Positions 6,814 through 32,951 of a DNA stretch of 35,888 nt are shown one piece after another. Under the pieces are notes generated by a model that searched no databases, was not told the DNA's origin, and was given only the letters and a program-made list of their open reading frames with translations. Origin of the DNA: Clostridia bacterium (GTDB lineage Bacteria > Bacillota > Clostridia > UBA1212); assembly GCA_017444825.1 (NCBI GenBank), contig JAFSVU010000011.1, positions 1 to 35,888 on the forward strand, in the 5' to 3' direction. Positions within the stretch are counted from its first letter, which is position 1. Every line of letters begins with the position of its first letter. Made by a program: the position numbers and the translations under genes.

Positions 6814-6864
6814 CTCAAACCAGCCTCCTTTGACAGATATGCGGGGCACTTTGCCCGAGTGGAT

Positions 6865-24769: not shown

Positions 24770-26764
24770 ATGGGCGTTTTGCTGCTTATTGTGTACATAA
24801 TGCTGGGAACGGTGGTCGGCGCGGTGGTGTTTGCGTCGGAGGACTCCTGGCTTAAAAAGGTGTGGCTCGGAGGCGTCATCGGAATGATGCTCCTTATGTG
24901 GTCCCACGTGCCTTTCTCGTTTTTCCTTGGTTTCACGGTGCTTTCCCACATTCTCGGATTGGTTCTTTCACTGGTGATCGTGCTGGGGATCGTTCTTCTG
25001 AAGGCGGTCTTCGTGCAGAAAACGGGACGTTCGGAAGGTGAGATCGCGGTCGGTTTCCGGGAGGCGGCCCTGATCCCGTTCAAGAAGTTTTTCACTAAAT
25101 TTACTAAAAAAGACGCTTTCATGCTGGCCTTTACGGTGCCTTTCCTGGTGCTGGCGATCGTGCTCGTGGTCTCCCATACTCTGAACTATGACGACGGGGC
25201 CTACTACACCGGCCAGTGCACCTACGGGGACATGAATATGCACCTCGGTTTCATCACGAGCATCGCAAGGCAGCACACTTTCCCGCCGACCTATTCCCTG
25301 ATGGGGGGCGTGGAGCCTTTAAACTACCCGTTCCTTTGCGACACCGTTTCGGCTTCTGTGCTGCTCTTTGGTTCGTCCCTCAGGACTGCGTATATGCTGC
25401 CGATGATATTCGCGTTTTTGTTCGTGTTCATGGGCGTCTGGTACCTTGCGGAGGGGATACTCGAGAAACCCGGCAGGACTGCGCTTGCATATACGTTTTT
25501 CCTTCTTGACGGCGGTCTCGGCATTTTTTACTTCCTGGACGGCACAAAGAAAAATCCGGAGAATTTCACCAGAATATTTACGGCGTTCTACAACACCCCC
25601 ACAAACCTCGTTGACGAGAACGTGAGATGGACCAATGTGATCGCCGACATGCTTCTCCCCCAGAGGGCGACACTGTTTGGCTGGATGTGCCTTTTTGCGG
25701 TGCTTTTCGTTCTCTACAAGGCGGTCTTCAGAGAAAAGAGGAGCTATTTTTTGGCGGCGGGCATATTGGCGGGTCTCCTTCCGATGATCCACACCCACTC
25801 GTATTTTGCGGCGGGTCTCGTTGCCATCCCCTGGATAGTCGCAAGCCTTATCCGCGACAAATTCAACAAAAATACAATAATCGGCTGGCTCATGTTCGGA
25901 GTTCCGGCATTGCTGATCTCGGTGCCGCAGCTTCTGACATGGACCTTCAATGCGGTGGGCGGCGACCATTTCGTGAGATTCGTTTTCAACTGGTCCAACA
26001 GCGAGGCGGGCGACAGCTGGATCTGGTTCTGGGTGAAGAACCTGGGCATCGCATTCCTGCTGATCCCCACGGCATTCCTCAGCGCCGAAAACAAAAAGAA
26101 GCTTGTCTACCTTGGGCCCTTCCTCATTTTCATTGTGGCCGAGCTCATCGTTTTCCAGCCCAACCTGTACGATAACATTAAGCTGTTCTTCGTCTGGTAC
26201 CTGTTTATGGCTGTTATGATCGCTGACTTCCTTGGCAAGTGCTACGAAAAGCTGAAGGGCATAAGAGGCGTCAAGCTGGCCGCGGGAATTCTGGTGCTCC
26301 TGATGACAATTTCCGGCGCGCTAACTCTCGGAAGGGAGGTCTACTCGGGTACCCGCGACAAGGAGAAGAACACAGGACCTGCATACCAGCTCTACAACGA
26401 AGCCAATGTGTCCGCCGCGGAGTGGATCGAAGCCAATACTGAGCCGGATGCCGTATTCCTCTGCTACAACAACCACAACAATGCGATCGCCTCTCTTACG
26501 GGCAGAAACATCTACGTGGGCGCCGGCACCTTCCTTTACTTCCACGGGGTGAACTACCAGTCCCGGGAGCAGCTGATGAGGCAGATGCTGACCAATGCGG
26601 AGGTCTTTGAGGCCCACAAGGAAGAGGCCGACATTGACTACGTGTACGTGGGGGACTACGAACGGGGCAACTTCGGCGCGTCTCTGATAACCCAGTATTT
26701 CCGCGATAATTACGAAAAAGTGTACAGCGACAAGGGAATCGAGATATTCAAAATACGGGGGTAA
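24770..26764 (+). CDS. Large multipass membrane protein, GT-C glycosyltransferase-like
   Basis: 664 residues with about 13 hydrophobic segments over residues 1-530, then a soluble C-terminal part of about 130 residues. An extracytoplasmic loop after the fourth or fifth helix has TLNYDDGAYYTGQCTYGDMNMHLGFITSIARQ, which matches the acidic loop that holds the catalytic Asp in GT-C enzymes using lipid-linked sugars. The tail has AAEWIEANTEPDAVFLCYNNHNN and SLTGRNIYVG, as in other GT-C-like bacterial proteins. A glycosyltransferase for a surface glycan is likely, but the donor and acceptor are unknown. It lies 28 bp after the isomerase gene. Confidence 0.85.
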   Translation: MGVLLLIVYIMLGTVVGAVVFASEDSWLKKVWLGGVIGMMLLMWSHVPFSFFLGFTVLSHILGLVLSLVIVLGIVLLKAVFVQKTGRSEGEIAVGFREAALIPFKKFFTKFTKKDAFMLAFTVPFLVLAIVLVVSHTLNYDDGAYYTGQCTYGDMNMHLGFITSIARQHTFPPTYSLMGGVEPLNYPFLCDTVSASVLLFGSSLRTAYMLPMIFAFLFVFMGVWYLAEGILEKPGRTALAYTFFLLDGGLGIFYFLDGTKKNPENFTRIFTAFYNTPTNLVDENVRWTNVIADMLLPQRATLFGWMCLFAVLFVLYKAVFREKRSYFLAAGILAGLLPMIHTHSYFAAGLVAIPWIVASLIRDKFNKNTIIGWLMFGVPALLISVPQLLTWTFNAVGGDHFVRFVFNWSNSEAGDSWIWFWVKNLGIAFLLIPTAFLSAENKKKLVYLGPFLIFIVAELIVFQPNLYDNIKLFFVWYLFMAVMIADFLGKCYEKLKGIRGVKLAAGILVLLMTISGALTLGREVYSGTRDKEKNTGPAYQLYNEANVSAAEWIEANTEPDAVFLCYNNHNNAIASLTGRNIYVGAGTFLYFHGVNYQSREQLMRQMLTNAEVFEAHKEEADIDYVYVGDYERGNFGASLITQYFRDNYEKVYSDKGIEIFKIRG

Positions 26765-26839
26765 TATACAAGAAATTTGTGAAAAACAGCTCCAAAAGGC
26801 TGTTAAGCTTATTTCAATCTAAAAGAGTATAATGATAAT

Positions 26840-27000
26840 TGCTAAGGGGCGAAAGCCCCAAGTGAAAAAAAGATAATTACGGCCAAAATCCTCCTTTTGT
26901 TGTGGCTAAAAACTCCTTTCTTTTTCATAATCCGTAATTATCTACCCCTTTTCCCTTTTAAAAGCAAGCGGTTGGTAAGGCACGACCGCTTGTTTTTTAG
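26840..27000 (+). ncRNA. Candidate small RNA with two anti-Shine-Dalgarno motifs
   Basis: A perfect TATAAT (26828-26833), with only a poor -35, predicts a start near 26840. The transcript would contain a GAAA-capped hairpin GGGGC/GCCCC (26846-26859), a 12-bp perfect stem AGATAATTACGG (26871-26882) with CCGTAATTATCT (26932-26943), and end at an intrinsic terminator at 26965-26998. Inside the long stem, CCTCCTTTT (26890-26898) sits in the loop of a small hairpin GCCA/TGGC, and CTCCTTTCT (26913-26921) follows. Both strings match the anti-Shine-Dalgarno end of 16S rRNA. No open frame is present. AAGGGG (26844-26849) could alternatively pair with CCCCTT (26945-26950). Confidence 0.5.
26965..26998 (+). 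terminator. Intrinsic terminator of the candidate small RNA
   Basis: CAAGCGGT (26965-26972) pairs perfectly with ACCGCTTG (26985-26992), followed by six T. Upstream, AACAGC (26785-26790) and GCTGTT (26799-26804) form a weaker hairpin after the GT-C gene. Together with a hairpin GTGCCG/CGGCAC (27002-27017), these account for most of the 357-bp gap between 26764 and 27122. Confidence 0.88.
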
Positions 27001-27041
27001 TGTGCCGGGCACGGCACAGTTCTTGCGGACCTCTTTTCCGG

Positions 27042-27070
27042 TTGTTAATTAACGACCGCTGAGGTATAAT
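27042..27070 (+). promoter_or_regulatory. Promoter of the first acyl-CoA ligase gene
   Basis: TTGTTA (27042-27047), 17-bp spacer, perfect TATAAT (27065-27070). It lies downstream of the small-RNA terminator and about 50 bp before the start at 27122, so the ligase has its own transcript. Confidence 0.75.
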
Positions 27071-27121
27071 TTCACCGTGTGGCGCGGCGAAAAGCGGGCC
27101 GGGCCTTAAGTGAGGAGATCA

Positions 27122-28900
27122 ATGTCTGAAAATAGTAACCAATGGGATAATTTTGAAATTGAGAGCGGAAGCTCGGAGGCGAAAGACAAAGCTCTTAAGA
27201 CGTGGAAAAAGTATTTCGGGAATGATGATTTTTTTCTCAAATACCCTAAAAAGACGATCTATGAGCTGATGGCCGGAAACGCGGAAGCGTGGCTCTGCGA
27301 GCCTGCCATTGATTTCGAAGGGCGTGTCATCCGCTTCAATGAATTCCTTAAGAAGATCGACGAAACGGCAAGGGCTCTTAAAGCGGCGGGAGTAGGCATT
27401 GGCGATGCGGTGACGGTTTCGATGCCCAACATACCGCAGGCGCTTTACTGTTTTTATGCGTTAAGCAAGATAGGCGCGGTGCCGAGCATGATCCATCCGC
27501 TGTCGGCGTCGGGGGAGATCACGCAGTATCTTACGATCTCAAAAAGCGTGATGCTGATGACGGTCGATCTGTTTTTTGACAAGAACCTGGCGGCGGCGAA
27601 CGACTACGCCGAAAAGACCGGCAGGAGTATCAAGGTCGTCGTGACGTCCGTTGGCGATGAGCTTTCGGGGATCAAGAGGCTCGTTTACGAGGCGGCGAAC
27701 AAGAAAAAGGTGTCGCAAAAGGAGCTTCCGGAAAATGCGGTCACCTGGAAACGGTTCATAAAAAGCGGTGAGGGCACAAAAGCCCCGACGTACGGCTTCA
27801 AGAACGGGAAAAAGGAAGACGAGACCGCGGTGATACTCTACAGCGGGGGCACCACAGGGACGCCAAAGGGGATCCTGCTGACTGACCTTAACGTCAATGC
27901 GGAGGCGATACAGACACTTACGGTGAGCGGTGAGACGAGGGAACCGGGGCTCAAGATGCTTTCGGTGATGCCTCTTTTCCACGGTTTCGGCCTGGGGATC
28001 GGCATCCACATGCCCCTTGTTTACGGGGTGGAGTGCGTGCTCATGCCGAGATTTTCGGTGGACGGCTACGCAAAGATATTAAGAACGAAAAAACCGAATT
28101 TCATCCCGGGCGTTCCCACGCTTTTTGAGGCGCTCCTTCGGACCAAGACTCTCGAAAAAACAGACCTTTCATTTTTGAGAGGCGTTTTCTGCGGCGGTGA
28201 CACCCTTCCTCCTGACCTCAAGGACAGAGTGGACGATTTTCTGAAAAATCACGGCGCAAAGGTCCAGATCAGAGAGGGCTACGGCACCACCGAGTGCGTG
28301 ACAGCTTCATGCCTCACGCCAAAAGACTACAACAAGCGGGGCAGCATAGGCATCCCGTTCCCCGACACGTATTACATGATCACGAAGACCGGAACAACCG
28401 AGCCTGCAGCGACGGGCGAAGAGGGCGAGATTTGCCTCCGGGGCCCCTCCGTAATGCTTGGATACGCCAATGACGAGGCAGAAACCGCCAATGCCCTCAG
28501 AAGGCACGACGACGGGCTGGTGTGGCTCCACACCGGTGACCTTGGTTATATGGACGATGAAGGCTTCCTTTACTTCAGGCAGAGGCTTAAGAGGCTTATC
28601 ATCACGTCGGGATACAACATTTATCCCACCCAGGTGGAGGCGGTCATTTCGTCACATCCGGCGGTGCATCTTTGCTGCGTCATCGGCGTGAAGGACAGCT
28701 ATAAGATGGAGCGTGTGAAGGCGTTCGTGATGGTGAGACCCGGCTTTGAGGCAGGGGACGAGCTGGCGGACGACATTAAGAGGTATTGCCGTGAGCGGAT
28801 GATAAAGGTCGCGGTGCCGAAGGAGATCGAGTTCAGAGAGGATCTGCCGAGAACGCTGGTGGGGAAGGTGGATTACAGGAAGCTGGAAGAGAATGTTTGA
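27122..28900 (+). CDS. AMP-dependent acyl-CoA synthetase/ligase (first copy)
   Basis: 592 residues. The ATG at 27122 follows GAGGAG; a GTG four codons earlier overlaps that site and is rejected. ANL-superfamily motifs in order: VILYSGGTTGTPKGILLTD at about residues 237-255 (P-loop for ATP), REGYGTTECVTASCLTP, WLHTGDLGYMDDEGFLYFRQRLKRLI with the hinge region, GYNIYPTQVEA, and RTLVGKVDYRKLEE with the catalytic Lys at about residue 582. It activates a carboxylic acid with ATP and loads it on CoA. The acid is unknown. The first 50 residues are charged and variable. A repeat block follows its stop directly. Confidence 0.92.
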   Translation: MSENSNQWDNFEIESGSSEAKDKALKTWKKYFGNDDFFLKYPKKTIYELMAGNAEAWLCEPAIDFEGRVIRFNEFLKKIDETARALKAAGVGIGDAVTVSMPNIPQALYCFYALSKIGAVPSMIHPLSASGEITQYLTISKSVMLMTVDLFFDKNLAAANDYAEKTGRSIKVVVTSVGDELSGIKRLVYEAANKKKVSQKELPENAVTWKRFIKSGEGTKAPTYGFKNGKKEDETAVILYSGGTTGTPKGILLTDLNVNAEAIQTLTVSGETREPGLKMLSVMPLFHGFGLGIGIHMPLVYGVECVLMPRFSVDGYAKILRTKKPNFIPGVPTLFEALLRTKTLEKTDLSFLRGVFCGGDTLPPDLKDRVDDFLKNHGAKVQIREGYGTTECVTASCLTPKDYNKRGSIGIPFPDTYYMITKTGTTEPAATGEEGEICLRGPSVMLGYANDEAETANALRRHDDGLVWLHTGDLGYMDDEGFLYFRQRLKRLIITSGYNIYPTQVEAVISSHPAVHLCCVIGVKDSYKMERVKAFVMVRPGFEAGDELADDIKRYCRERMIKVAVPKEIEFREDLPRTLVGKVDYRKLEENV

Positions 28901-29190: not shown

Positions 29191-30882
29191 ATGATTTCGC
29201 GGATAAAATGTTTGGTTAAGAAGTGGAGCAGGGCTTTGGCAGCGGCACTTTCGATATTGCTTGCGGCTGCGACGCTTTCTGCCTGCTCGCTTGGAAGAGG
29301 CTGGCGAAACGGGAAATGGGAGGTTAAAGATATGAAAAACGGTGAGGTTCCGGATGCGGAATTCTGCGAGGATTTTAAGGTTTCCAATGTGTTCTCGGAC
29401 AACATGGTGCTTCAGAGAAACGAGCATGTGCGTGTCTGGGGATTTGCGGACGAGTCGCAGAACGGAAAGAAGGTTTGCGGTGAGTTTAAGGGCGTGACGG
29501 CGGAGGCCTTTGTCGAGGACGGCGAGTGGGTGCTGACATTTAAGCAGCGGCTGCAGGCGGATCCGAAAGGCGCGGAACTTAAGATATACACCGACAAAAA
29601 AGAGGTCGTTTTCAAGGACGTACTGGTGGGCGACGTGTACATCGTTTCGGGGCAATCCAACGCGGAGTATCCCATGGGTATTCACTGGATGTTCCTTGGC
29701 GAGAACGACGACCGCTGCCCGAGGGATTCGATAGATGCGGAGCTTCCCATAAGGCTTAACTATAAAGGACAGAATTATCAGAACGGCGTCAAGGTTAGGG
29801 GCTCCGAGGAGCTGGCGAAGGACATTGACGACGGACTTCCCGGGTGGCAGTATGCGACGGCGGACAATCTCGAAGGGTTCTCGGCCATTGGTTATTTGTT
29901 TGCCTATCACTACGTGAAAATGACGGGCGGCGCGGTGCCGGTGGGGCTTGTGGAGCTTGACGGAAGCGGAAGACCTCTGGGATGCTTTGTGCCCAATGAG
30001 GTGGCTGACAAGTACGGAACGGATTTCTACAGCTCGACCAAGGGCTACTACGTTACCGAGGGTATCAACGCGGAGTGGGGCAGGTTCATGTTTAACGAGT
30101 ATTTCCACCCGTTCGCCAAGATGGCCATTAACGGCTTCCTCTGGTACCAGGGCGAGAGCGATCTCCTTGACGAGACTACGAAGCGCTACAACGACGCCTT
30201 CATCGGCATGGTCGAGCATATGAGAGACACCCACAATCTGATCAACAGGGATTTCCCGGTCTACTTTATCGAGTTCCCGGCTATATTCACCCAGGATCCG
30301 GAGTATACGGGCACCGACAACTGGGCGTTTCTTGACGTGGGCAGGATCCGCGCGACAATGGGCTCCCTGGTCATGGAGGGCAAAAACTTCTACCAGATAC
30401 AGTCCTCCGACCTCTGGACCGACAGAAAATACTGGAACAGCCTCCATCCGAACTGCAAATATGAGCAGGGTCAAAGGGCGGCAAAGATCGCCTGTGCGCT
30501 CAACGAGGACGGCGGGCAGCAGCTCAGCGAGGCTTCGGGGCCTATTGTCGAGAGCATTACATATTCATCCGACCTCAGAAAGGCAACTGTGAAATATAAA
30601 AACGTGGGCTACGGCCTCACCACCGCCAATGGTGACCGCTACGTTAAAGGCTTCAACGTGCTCGTTGCGCGCCACGTCATCGGCGCCGGAGTCGAATGCA
30701 AGGCGAAGATCGTGAGCCGCGACACTGTGGAAATCACTGCGGATATTCCGTTCGTGGGAGTCTGCTACAACGCCATCACCACCTGGGTGTACGGCGAGGA
30801 TATCACACTGACCAATTCGTCGGGCGTGCCCGCCGGTGCATTCCTTCATAATTATCTTGGTGGCGGGGTTAAAACAACTTGA
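29191..30882 (+). CDS. Exported sialate O-acetylesterase family lipoprotein
   Basis: 563 residues. The ATG at 29191 is 6 nt from AAGGAGAGG. Signal peptide with basic start and hydrophobic core, ending in lipobox LSAC at about residue 31, so it is probably lipid-anchored outside the cell. Two beta-rich parts flank a SGNH hydrolase domain: VYIVSGQSNAEYPM at about residue 152 (GQSN block with nucleophile Ser), GFLWYQGESDLLD at about 318 (block with Gly and the QGES signature), and SLHPNCKYEQGQRAAKIA at about 417 (catalytic His). The family removes O-acetyl groups from sialic acid or other glycans. The TGA stop lies inside the -35 box of the T-box promoter. Confidence 0.9.
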   Translation: MISRIKCLVKKWSRALAAALSILLAAATLSACSLGRGWRNGKWEVKDMKNGEVPDAEFCEDFKVSNVFSDNMVLQRNEHVRVWGFADESQNGKKVCGEFKGVTAEAFVEDGEWVLTFKQRLQADPKGAELKIYTDKKEVVFKDVLVGDVYIVSGQSNAEYPMGIHWMFLGENDDRCPRDSIDAELPIRLNYKGQNYQNGVKVRGSEELAKDIDDGLPGWQYATADNLEGFSAIGYLFAYHYVKMTGGAVPVGLVELDGSGRPLGCFVPNEVADKYGTDFYSSTKGYYVTEGINAEWGRFMFNEYFHPFAKMAINGFLWYQGESDLLDETTKRYNDAFIGMVEHMRDTHNLINRDFPVYFIEFPAIFTQDPEYTGTDNWAFLDVGRIRATMGSLVMEGKNFYQIQSSDLWTDRKYWNSLHPNCKYEQGQRAAKIACALNEDGGQQLSEASGPIVESITYSSDLRKATVKYKNVGYGLTTANGDRYVKGFNVLVARHVIGAGVECKAKIVSRDTVEITADIPFVGVCYNAITTWVYGEDITLTNSSGVPAGAFLHNYLGGGVKTT

Positions 30883-30914: not shown

Positions 30915-31206
30915 GTATATGCGTCAAAAGCGACGACGGAAAAAAGTAGCGCTTAAAATGGCCGGTAGAGAGCCTGCGGGTGGTGAAAGCAGGTGGCATT
31001 TTTCCCGTGAAACTCGTTCCCGAGCTGCCCGCGCGAAGGAGATCGGTCGGCATTTACCTGATGATCTTTGTGTAGAACGGGCCGTAAGCAGGCGTTAACT
31101 GTGAAAAGAGTGAGTCGGAACATACGTCCGGCTAATTAGAGTGGTACCGCGTGGATCTTTCCTCGTCTCTAAGTAGCGATAATGCGAACGGAGACGAGTT
31201 TTTTTA
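30915..31206 (+). promoter_or_regulatory. T-box riboswitch, probable leucine specificity (CTC specifier)
   Basis: The leader has all main T-box parts. Stem I: AGTA of the S-turn (30945-30948), a helix AAAATG/CATTTT, AGAGAG followed by the distal hairpin CCTGC/GCAGG, then the 3' side GTGAAA-CTC-GTTCCCGAGC. The specifier CTC (31013-31015) follows GAAA and precedes a purine and GAGC at the same distance as GGC in the B. subtilis glyQS leader as I remember it. The T-box itself, AGAGTGGTACCGCG, is at 31138-31151; its bulge TGGT would pair with a tRNA ending in A-CCA, as tRNA-Leu does. A terminator follows. In this class, uncharged tRNA stabilises the antiterminator and turns genes on. Confidence 0.9.
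31172..31206 (+). terminator. T-box regulated terminator
   Basis: CTCGTCTC (31172-31179) pairs perfectly with GAGACGAG (31191-31198), followed by seven T. It competes with the antiterminator formed by the T-box sequence at 31138-31151. Confidence 0.9.
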
Positions 31207-31238
31207 TCATTAAAGGCAGCAAAGGAGGCGCCCCGGCA

Positions 31239-32951
31239 ATGAGCAAGATATTCGGTGAAGCCGATAAAAAATTACACGATATGACCCTTGGCGATCTTCT
31301 GGACCGTACTGCTGAAGTTTTTCCGGACGTCGAGGCGATCTTTTACAACGACAGACCTTTCCGCAAAACTTACGCGGAGTTCAGGGATACCTGCAACGTG
31401 ATCGCAAGAGGGCTACTCGCTATCGGCGTTAAAAAAGGAAGCCACGTGGCGATCTGGGCCACCAACTACCCCGAGTGGATACTCCTTATGTTTGCCACAG
31501 CGAAGATCGGAGCCACATTGGTTACGGTCAACACGAACTACAAAATATACGAGGCGGAGTACCTGCTTCGCCAATCCGACACGGACACTCTTGTGCTCAT
31601 GAAGGGCCTCAAGGACACCTGCTACACCGATATAATCAATGAGCTCTGCCCCACACTGAAGGACAGCAAGCCAGGCGAGCTTGAGTCGGAGGACTTGCCA
31701 ATGCTGAAGCGGGTCATCTATATCGACCGCATCGAGGACACTCCCCACGGCATGTACCATTGGTCCGAACTGGAGCAGGAGGCTGAAAAGGTCAGCGAAG
31801 AGGAGCGCAGGGCGCTTCAGAAGACAGTCATGCCGAATGACGTGGTAAACATGCAGTACACCTCGGGCACCACGGGATTCCCCAAGGGCGTTATGCTGAC
31901 CCACAGGGGTATTTTGAACAACGGGAAGTGCATTGGCGATAACCAGAAGCTCTCCGAGAAGGACCGCGTCTGCCTGCCTGTGCCGTTCTTCCACTGTTTC
32001 GGCTGCGTGCTGGGTATAATGGCCTGCGTGACTCACGGATCGACGATCGTTCCGGTGGAGCGCTACCACCCGGTGAGGACCATGAACGCCATCAGGGACG
32101 GCCGCTGCACTGCCACCTACGGAGTGCCTACAATGTACATCGCGATGCTGGAGCACCCGGATTTTCCGAAATACGACTTTTCCAACATGCGCACAGGCAT
32201 CATGTCCGGCTCCCCTTGCCCAATCAAAGTTATGCAGCAGGTTGTGGATCTTATGCACATGACTGAGATCACGATCCCCTACGGTATGACGGAGACGTCG
32301 CCGGTCTGCACCATGACCAATACCGAGGACAGCATCGAAAAGAGAGTCACAACGGTTGGCCGGGGCATGCCCTTCCTCGAGGTGAAGGTGGTGAATCCCG
32401 AAACCAATGAAGACCTGCCGCCAAACACCCCCGGCGAAGTGGTGGTGAGAGGCTATTCAGTCATGAAGGGCTACTACAACATGCCTGAGGCAACCGCCAA
32501 TGCCATTGACGCCGACGGCTGGTACCACTCGGGAGACCTGGCCTCTGTCGACGAAGAGGGATATTTCCACATCACAGGCCGCATCAAGGACATGATCATT
32601 CGCGGCGGCGAGAACATTTACCCCAAGGAGCTGGAGGAGTTCTTCTACACCCATCCGAAGGTACAGGACGTGCAGGTCATTGGCGTGCCCGATTCAAACT
32701 ACGGAGAAGAGGTCTGCGCGTGCATAGTGCTGCGTGAGGACGTCAGGGAGAATGAGAGCGAGGAGGCGCTCAGGGAAGAACTGATGAATTTTGCATTGGC
32801 GAATATCGCCCGCCACAAGAAACCGAAGTACATCTGGTTTATGGACGAGTTCCCGATGACGGCCAGCGGAAAGATACAGAAGTACAAGATGAGAGAGATG
32901 GCGGTCGTTCACTTTAACCTGGGCGATGCGGCCAAGATCGAGACAGCGTAA
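31239..32951 (+). CDS. AMP-dependent acyl-CoA synthetase/ligase under T-box control (second copy)
   Basis: 570 residues. The ATG at 31239 follows AAAGGAGG (31221-31228); the frame is open further left but that part lies in the T-box terminator. ANL motifs: MQYTSGTTGFPKGVMLTH at about residues 205-222, IPYGMTETSPV, GWYHSGDLASVDEEGYFHI, GRIKDMIIRGGENIYPKELEEF and TASGKIQKYKMREM with the catalytic Lys at about 545. The sequence looks like the ACSF2/FadD/YngI type that activates short- to medium-chain or branched acids. It is only distantly like the ligase at 27122. The Leu-type T-box upstream implies a role in leucine supply, for example activating isovalerate. It is followed at 32 bp by the thioesterase gene. 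Confidence 0.94.
   Translation: MSKIFGEADKKLHDMTLGDLLDRTAEVFPDVEAIFYNDRPFRKTYAEFRDTCNVIARGLLAIGVKKGSHVAIWATNYPEWILLMFATAKIGATLVTVNTNYKIYEAEYLLRQSDTDTLVLMKGLKDTCYTDIINELCPTLKDSKPGELESEDLPMLKRVIYIDRIEDTPHGMYHWSELEQEAEKVSEEERRALQKTVMPNDVVNMQYTSGTTGFPKGVMLTHRGILNNGKCIGDNQKLSEKDRVCLPVPFFHCFGCVLGIMACVTHGSTIVPVERYHPVRTMNAIRDGRCTATYGVPTMYIAMLEHPDFPKYDFSNMRTGIMSGSPCPIKVMQQVVDLMHMTEITIPYGMTETSPVCTMTNTEDSIEKRVTTVGRGMPFLEVKVVNPETNEDLPPNTPGEVVVRGYSVMKGYYNMPEATANAIDADGWYHSGDLASVDEEGYFHITGRIKDMIIRGGENIYPKELEEFFYTHPKVQDVQVIGVPDSNYGEEVCACIVLREDVRENESEEALREELMNFALANIARHKKPKYIWFMDEFPMTASGKIQKYKMREMAVVHFNLGDAAKIETA

Follow-up and report, generated by a model that had tools for sequence, protein, structure and literature searches.

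Small RNAs (sRNAs) that bind Shine-Dalgarno (SD) sequences in low-GC bacteria typically have C-rich motifs in loops or in unpaired stretches (PMC4132741; PMC4409812). The closest described systems are of this kind, and each shares features with the RNA that we describe here. The CiaR-dependent csRNAs of streptococci are monocistronic, with stem-loops at both ends and unpaired anti-SD and CAU sequences, and their promoters have a direct-repeat-like box (NTTAAG-N5-TTNAA-) immediately before TATAAT (PMC3091779). In RsaE/RoxS (RF01820), a stem-loop and the linker that leads to the terminator hold several C-rich regions (PMC4409812). LhrC of Listeria (RF00616), which is controlled by the LisRK two-component system, has a redundant CU-rich motif in loops and between stems (PMC4132741). 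FsrA, SprD, and RNAIII are also C-rich and SD-binding (cited in PMC4132741), and we would expect a similar mode of action. The RNA described here has several conserved, unpaired C-rich anti-SD motifs and ends in a terminator. Our best reading is that it represents a previously uncatalogued family within this functional class, independent in sequence, that would act much as RoxS/RsaE, LhrC, and the csRNAs do.

The source is an uncultured rumen bacterium of the Clostridia. Within the window (the whole stretch of DNA that was analysed, 35,888 nt), the sRNA locus occupies intergenic space between two ordinary genes. Its features are:

24770-26764, plus strand: upstream neighbour, a gene for a 664-aa membrane protein that keeps its place beside the sRNA at every locus.
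26802-26818, plus strand: promoter box NTTAAG-N5-TTCAAT (here GTTAAG-CTTAT-TTCAAT), with 0-1 mismatch in 6 genus genomes and in G006, a genome from a second genus of the family.
26828-26833, plus strand: -10 element TATAAT, just 5' of the start quoted in the earlier note, identical in 7/7 loci.
26839-26998, plus strand: predicted sRNA transcript of about 160 nt, with its start placed by the position of the -10 element and its 3' end by the terminator (fold z -4.81; orthologues in 6/6 genus genomes).
26839-26865, plus strand: 5' hairpin, GGGGC/GCCCC plus outer UUGCU/AGUGA, with a hairpin in every orthologue.
26871-26882, plus strand: 5' arm of the closing stem, AGATAATTACGG (covariation).
26890-26898, plus strand: anti-SD motif 1, CCTCCTTTT as DNA (CCUCCUUUU as RNA), in the unpaired loop; UCCUCCU in 6/6 genus members.
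26899-26906, plus strand: conserved unpaired GUUGUGGC (alignment).
26913-26921, plus strand: anti-SD motif 2, CTCCTTTCT as DNA (CUCCUUUCU as RNA); AAACUCCUUUC in 6/6 genus members.
26913-26928, plus strand: region of motif 2 running into UUUUUCAU, which is present in 6/6 genus members.
26932-26943, plus strand: 3' arm of the closing stem, CCGTAATTATCT (covariation, RNAalifold).
26945-26959, plus strand: CU-rich linker, the third C-rich region, CCCCTTTTCCCTTTT as DNA (CCCCUUUUCCCUUUU as RNA).
26965-26998, plus strand: intrinsic terminator, CAAGCGGUUG/CGACCGCUUG then UUUUUU (covariation).
27042-27070, plus strand: separate promoter of the AMP-dependent ligase gene, TTGTTA-17-TATAAT (sequence).
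27110-28900 or 27122-28900 (two start positions are given): downstream neighbour, the AMP-dependent ligase gene.

The earlier note had proposed an intergenic structured sRNA with a TATAAT, stems, a terminator, and no open frame, and both the sequence and its fold confirm this. The plus strand of the region folds at -50.3 kcal/mol, as compared to -31.6 +/- 3.9 kcal/mol for 200 dinucleotide shuffles (z -4.81; 0/200 were as low), while the minus strand folds less exceptionally (z -2.0). Only chance-sized frames cross the region (28 aa on the minus strand and 51 aa on the plus strand). We rejected coding on either strand, as the frames are broken by indels: loop lengths among relatives differ by numbers that are not divisible by three, which argues that the sRNA is not coding. 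The inner part of the 5' hairpin (GGGGC-GAAA-GCCCC) is at 26846-26859, and every orthologue forms a hairpin at this position, with differing sequence. The closing stem is a perfect 12 bp (11-12 bp among orthologues) and encloses a 49-nt loop. The terminator stem (26965-26992) is followed directly by six T, and the linker consists of two C runs with T between, conserved in 6/6 genus members.

A DNA search detected the sRNA in 6/6 genus genomes examined, with the same gene order, and it always sits between the same membrane-protein gene and AMP-ligase gene. (The genus-mates are MAGs labelled Mageeibacillus sp. UBA1212/UBA1243, Ruminococcus RUG12790, and yak-rumen Clostridia.) In the core alignment, 8 of 20 pairs changed on both sides while remaining paired, as compared to 2.4 in shuffles; these counts rest on few, related sequences and so are supportive and not a probability. 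Overall, 95% of the alignment cells were paired, and this fell to 23-49% if the partner was slid by 1-3 columns. Both the closing stem (5/12 pairs changed on both sides; 93% of cells paired) and the terminator (3/8 pairs; 97.5% paired) covary, and RNAalifold independently predicted the same two stems. Among the genus members, the most distant ones show joint changes in the two arms of the closing stem at several positions. The earlier note's reading as a structured sRNA is supported by the covarying stems and by the conservation of the loops that resemble the 16S tail. No other part of the transcript is as conserved as the unpaired loop (mean pairwise identity of 0.77, versus 0.68-0.73 for the closing stem and 0.55-0.57 for the flanks). 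The elements, their strand, their conservation, and their covariation are direct observations, and we are highly confident that the sRNA gene is real.

Two structural details of the earlier note were not borne out. It had placed CCTCCTTTT in a hairpin loop of its own, but this motif is unpaired in the 49-nt loop, and the covariation supports the outer stem only. It had also suggested a switch between two shapes, in which the 5' hairpin gives way to a pairing with the tail. This alternative pairing is just 4-5 bp long in 2/6 distinct sequences and is not conserved; its energies range from -4.8 to -12.7 kcal/mol across sequences.

The promoter box is probably the site of an activator. All copies have the form NTTAAG-N5-TTCAA(T/G)-N9-TATAAT, with the -10 element always 9 nt past the box (7 loci); the second half-site is TTCAAT in the genus and TTCAAG in G006. 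The mean pairwise identity of the box plus the -10 element is 0.81, versus 0.55 for the 60 nt upstream, and no genus genome has a perfect box anywhere but at the sRNA. In its layout, with two TTNAA half-sites spaced by 11 bp immediately 5' of the -10 element, the box resembles the activator sites of OmpR-family response regulators and comes near to the CiaR box of the streptococcal csRNA genes (PMC3091779). Reading the box as a direct repeat is tentative: the half-site repeat is weak, with 3/5 positions identical. The rule for CiaR boxes is (N/T)TTAAG-N5-TTTAAG, with invariant G positions, 10 nt before TATAAT (PMC3091779). The sRNA's box fails this rule, as TTCAAT lacks the invariant third T (it has C instead) and the final G, and the spacing to the -10 element is 9 instead of 10. 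The G006 box retains the final G that is missing in the genus.

The bacterium itself encodes only two OmpR-family regulators. Some 110 nt before the ATG of one of these (G000:C56, about 26500-27320) is a near copy of the box, GTTTAGCTTTTTTTCAG, with a TATAAT after it. This box scores 12.0, versus 27.4 at the sRNA, with p 3.7e-5 per position, or about 0.015 by our own correction for 200 positions before two genes; it was found after the fact, and the match includes a T tract, so it is a lead and not a result. We also considered a wider regulon for the box, but apart from this regulator, the other near matches that we read precede unrelated genes. In two sister genomes (G001:C17 and G004:C140), a box with 2 mismatches plus TATAAT lies at the end of a membrane-protein gene, and the gene for a thiamine-pyrophosphate-type enzyme comes directly after it. 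At G004:C157:42550-42581 (minus strand), a box with 1 mismatch plus TATAAT stands before a highly structured leader, which precedes genes for a TetR-type regulator and an ABC transporter. It is conceivable, though we doubt it, that a two-component-controlled sRNA that blocks ribosome-binding sites (RBSs) converged here on the csRNA/LhrC design, with one OmpR-family regulator driving both itself and the sRNA via the same box. Two-component control of RoxS would be a parallel (PMC4409812).

Beyond the genus, we found one diverged copy, in G006. The covariance model gives a weak match there (26.8 bits), which is within the range of chance matches in other genomes of the class, so the case for this copy rests on its box, position, and architecture together. 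The match adjoins an orthologue of the same upstream membrane-protein gene, and its promoter box has zero mismatches. A 5' hairpin is followed by a stem-loop in which UCCCCC occurs twice, and then by a linker with CCC and a terminator; the loop carries UUCCCCCU and UUUCCCCCUUUUUU, and the linker is UUUUCCCUU. Elsewhere in the family and the order, no copy was found by model, box, or syntenic site, and the syntenic site in the order's other families has no such RNA. Among 58 relatives, the only match of the DNA search beyond the genus was 23 nt long and is the antisense of an ordinary SD sequence. The extra covariance-model matches in the order and in 391 genomes of the class were rejected as terminators or low-complexity sequence without the box or loops, and we found nothing convincing outside the family.

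We think it likely that this is a free-standing, trans-acting sRNA of a new family that blocks RBSs. It would be transcribed from its own promoter, with the conserved activator-like box, and ended by its own terminator. The closing stem and the two end hairpins would present a loop of about 50 nt and the linker; together these hold three CU-rich stretches similar to the 16S rRNA 3' tail. By pairing with target mRNAs at the SD region, the stretches would keep ribosomes away, so that translation of the targets would be repressed in trans, perhaps under the control of an OmpR-family two-component regulator. Transcription, repression, and this control are all inferred. The 3' tail of 16S rRNA is ...ACCUCCUUUCU, and loop motifs 1 (CCUCCUUU) and 2 (CUCCUUUCU) equal stretches of it. 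The earlier note had recognized both of these motifs but only part of the third stretch, CCCCTTTTCCCTTTT (26945-26959). The CAU in UUUUUCAU is a possible anti-start element. Because it stands 3' of the CU motif, there can be no single continuous duplex from SD to start codon; in this placement the sRNA differs from the csRNAs, whose unpaired region is complementary to SD and start codon. It also differs from them in having one copy per genome, an added long closing stem, and a host from the Clostridia.

The loop does prefer RBSs. Across 356 genes predicted on some 436 kb of its own genome, the mean duplex energy was -15.7 kcal/mol to predicted RBSs, -13.5 kcal/mol to coding windows, and -13.8 +/- 0.5 kcal/mol for shuffled loops. 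This modest preference is real but small and generic, as expected of any anti-SD-like sequence. The earlier note had also proposed a trans-acting translational repressor and had named two AAAGGAGG sites as its matches. The conservation pattern and the anti-SD content fit a repressor; the two sites (the one near 6823 is properly at 6824-6831, minus strand) are ordinary, generic SD sequences. AAAGGAGG occurs three times in the window (one being the complement of the sRNA), versus 1.8 expected by chance, so the complementarity to two SD sites is not evidence by itself. Target prediction gave no tested target that is conserved between genomes: genes with an RBS matching GAAAGGAGTTT before the ATG were not shared, and the match of the best-scoring neighbouring RBS (29191) is lost in the sister genomes. 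SASA-type esterase genes in the window (29191-30882), and a relative in G003, have strong SDs that are complementary to the sRNA loop; in other sister genomes, the RBSs of the orthologues are not complementary to it.

If the sRNA acted globally, by competing with the 16S tail for strong SD sites in general and damping translation when induced, then a match of both loop motifs to that tail over 8-9 nt and a fruitless search for a specific conserved target are what we would see. We nevertheless consider global action improbable, as the parts of the loop that are not anti-SD (GUUGUGGC and UUUUUCAU) are conserved too, which suggests that particular partners exist. Also, the known sRNAs with C-rich motifs act on defined targets (PMC4409812, PMC4132741). 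That conserved GUUGUGGC, which lies between the CU motifs and is not accounted for by SD pairing, might instead point to a loop that serves to bind a protein or to titrate another RNA, with no action on RBSs. This seems quite improbable given three separate unpaired CU-rich, anti-SD-like stretches, as several such stretches are the hallmark of sRNAs that pair with RBSs.

That six genomes keep the sRNA in one place between these two genes would also suit a cis element, either a leader or attenuator of the AMP-ligase gene or an RNA derived from the 3' end of the upstream membrane-protein gene. We judge this to be very unlikely. The sRNA has its own conserved promoter and terminator, and the AMP-ligase gene has a separate promoter, which argues against a leader. 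Furthermore, G006 keeps the RNA with no AMP-ligase match following within the stretch of G006 that we examined, and conservation is higher in the box than in the gap that separates it from the upstream gene. Finally, a 6S RNA in diverged form, or some other housekeeping RNA, would have a similar length but is almost certainly not the answer, as the genome's own 6S RNA lies elsewhere (C49:92816-93016, 56 bits, over the cut-off), three sister genomes also have one (over the cut-off in two), the locus has no RF00013 match, and no Rfam family reaches threshold at the locus or in the orthologues.

By the tests that we made, the sRNA does not belong to the catalogued families in its class either. 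No Rfam family explains the structure: at both thresholds used, only weak matches were found at the locus or in the orthologues. Against the RsaE/RoxS model, the sRNA scores 20.3 bits (E 0.48; the gathering score is 79), and it has no CCCCUUUGUU duplication and no ResD-like site that we recognized. Against LhrC (RF00616), it scores 16.5 bits (E 7.6; the cut-off is 110), and LhrC, unlike the sRNA, is multicopy with UCCC motifs. No family for FsrA, SprD, or RNAIII is above threshold at the locus either.

To our knowledge, little is known about the regulatory RNAs of uncultured rumen Clostridia, and this sRNA adds an uncatalogued, covariation-supported family from them. It suggests repeated origins of the anti-SD design within the Firmicutes, with a two-component system possibly linked to each. 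With its narrow range (one family) and strong conservation, it is a usable case for how such RNAs originate and choose targets.

Elsewhere in the window, at 30924-31173 on the plus strand, is a strong T-box leader (124.8 bits). The genes that follow encode an AMP-dependent ligase of the acyl-CoA type (about 31236-32951) and an acyl-ACP thioesterase, which is an unusual client for a T-box. From the alignment, its specifier may, tentatively, read ACU (Thr).
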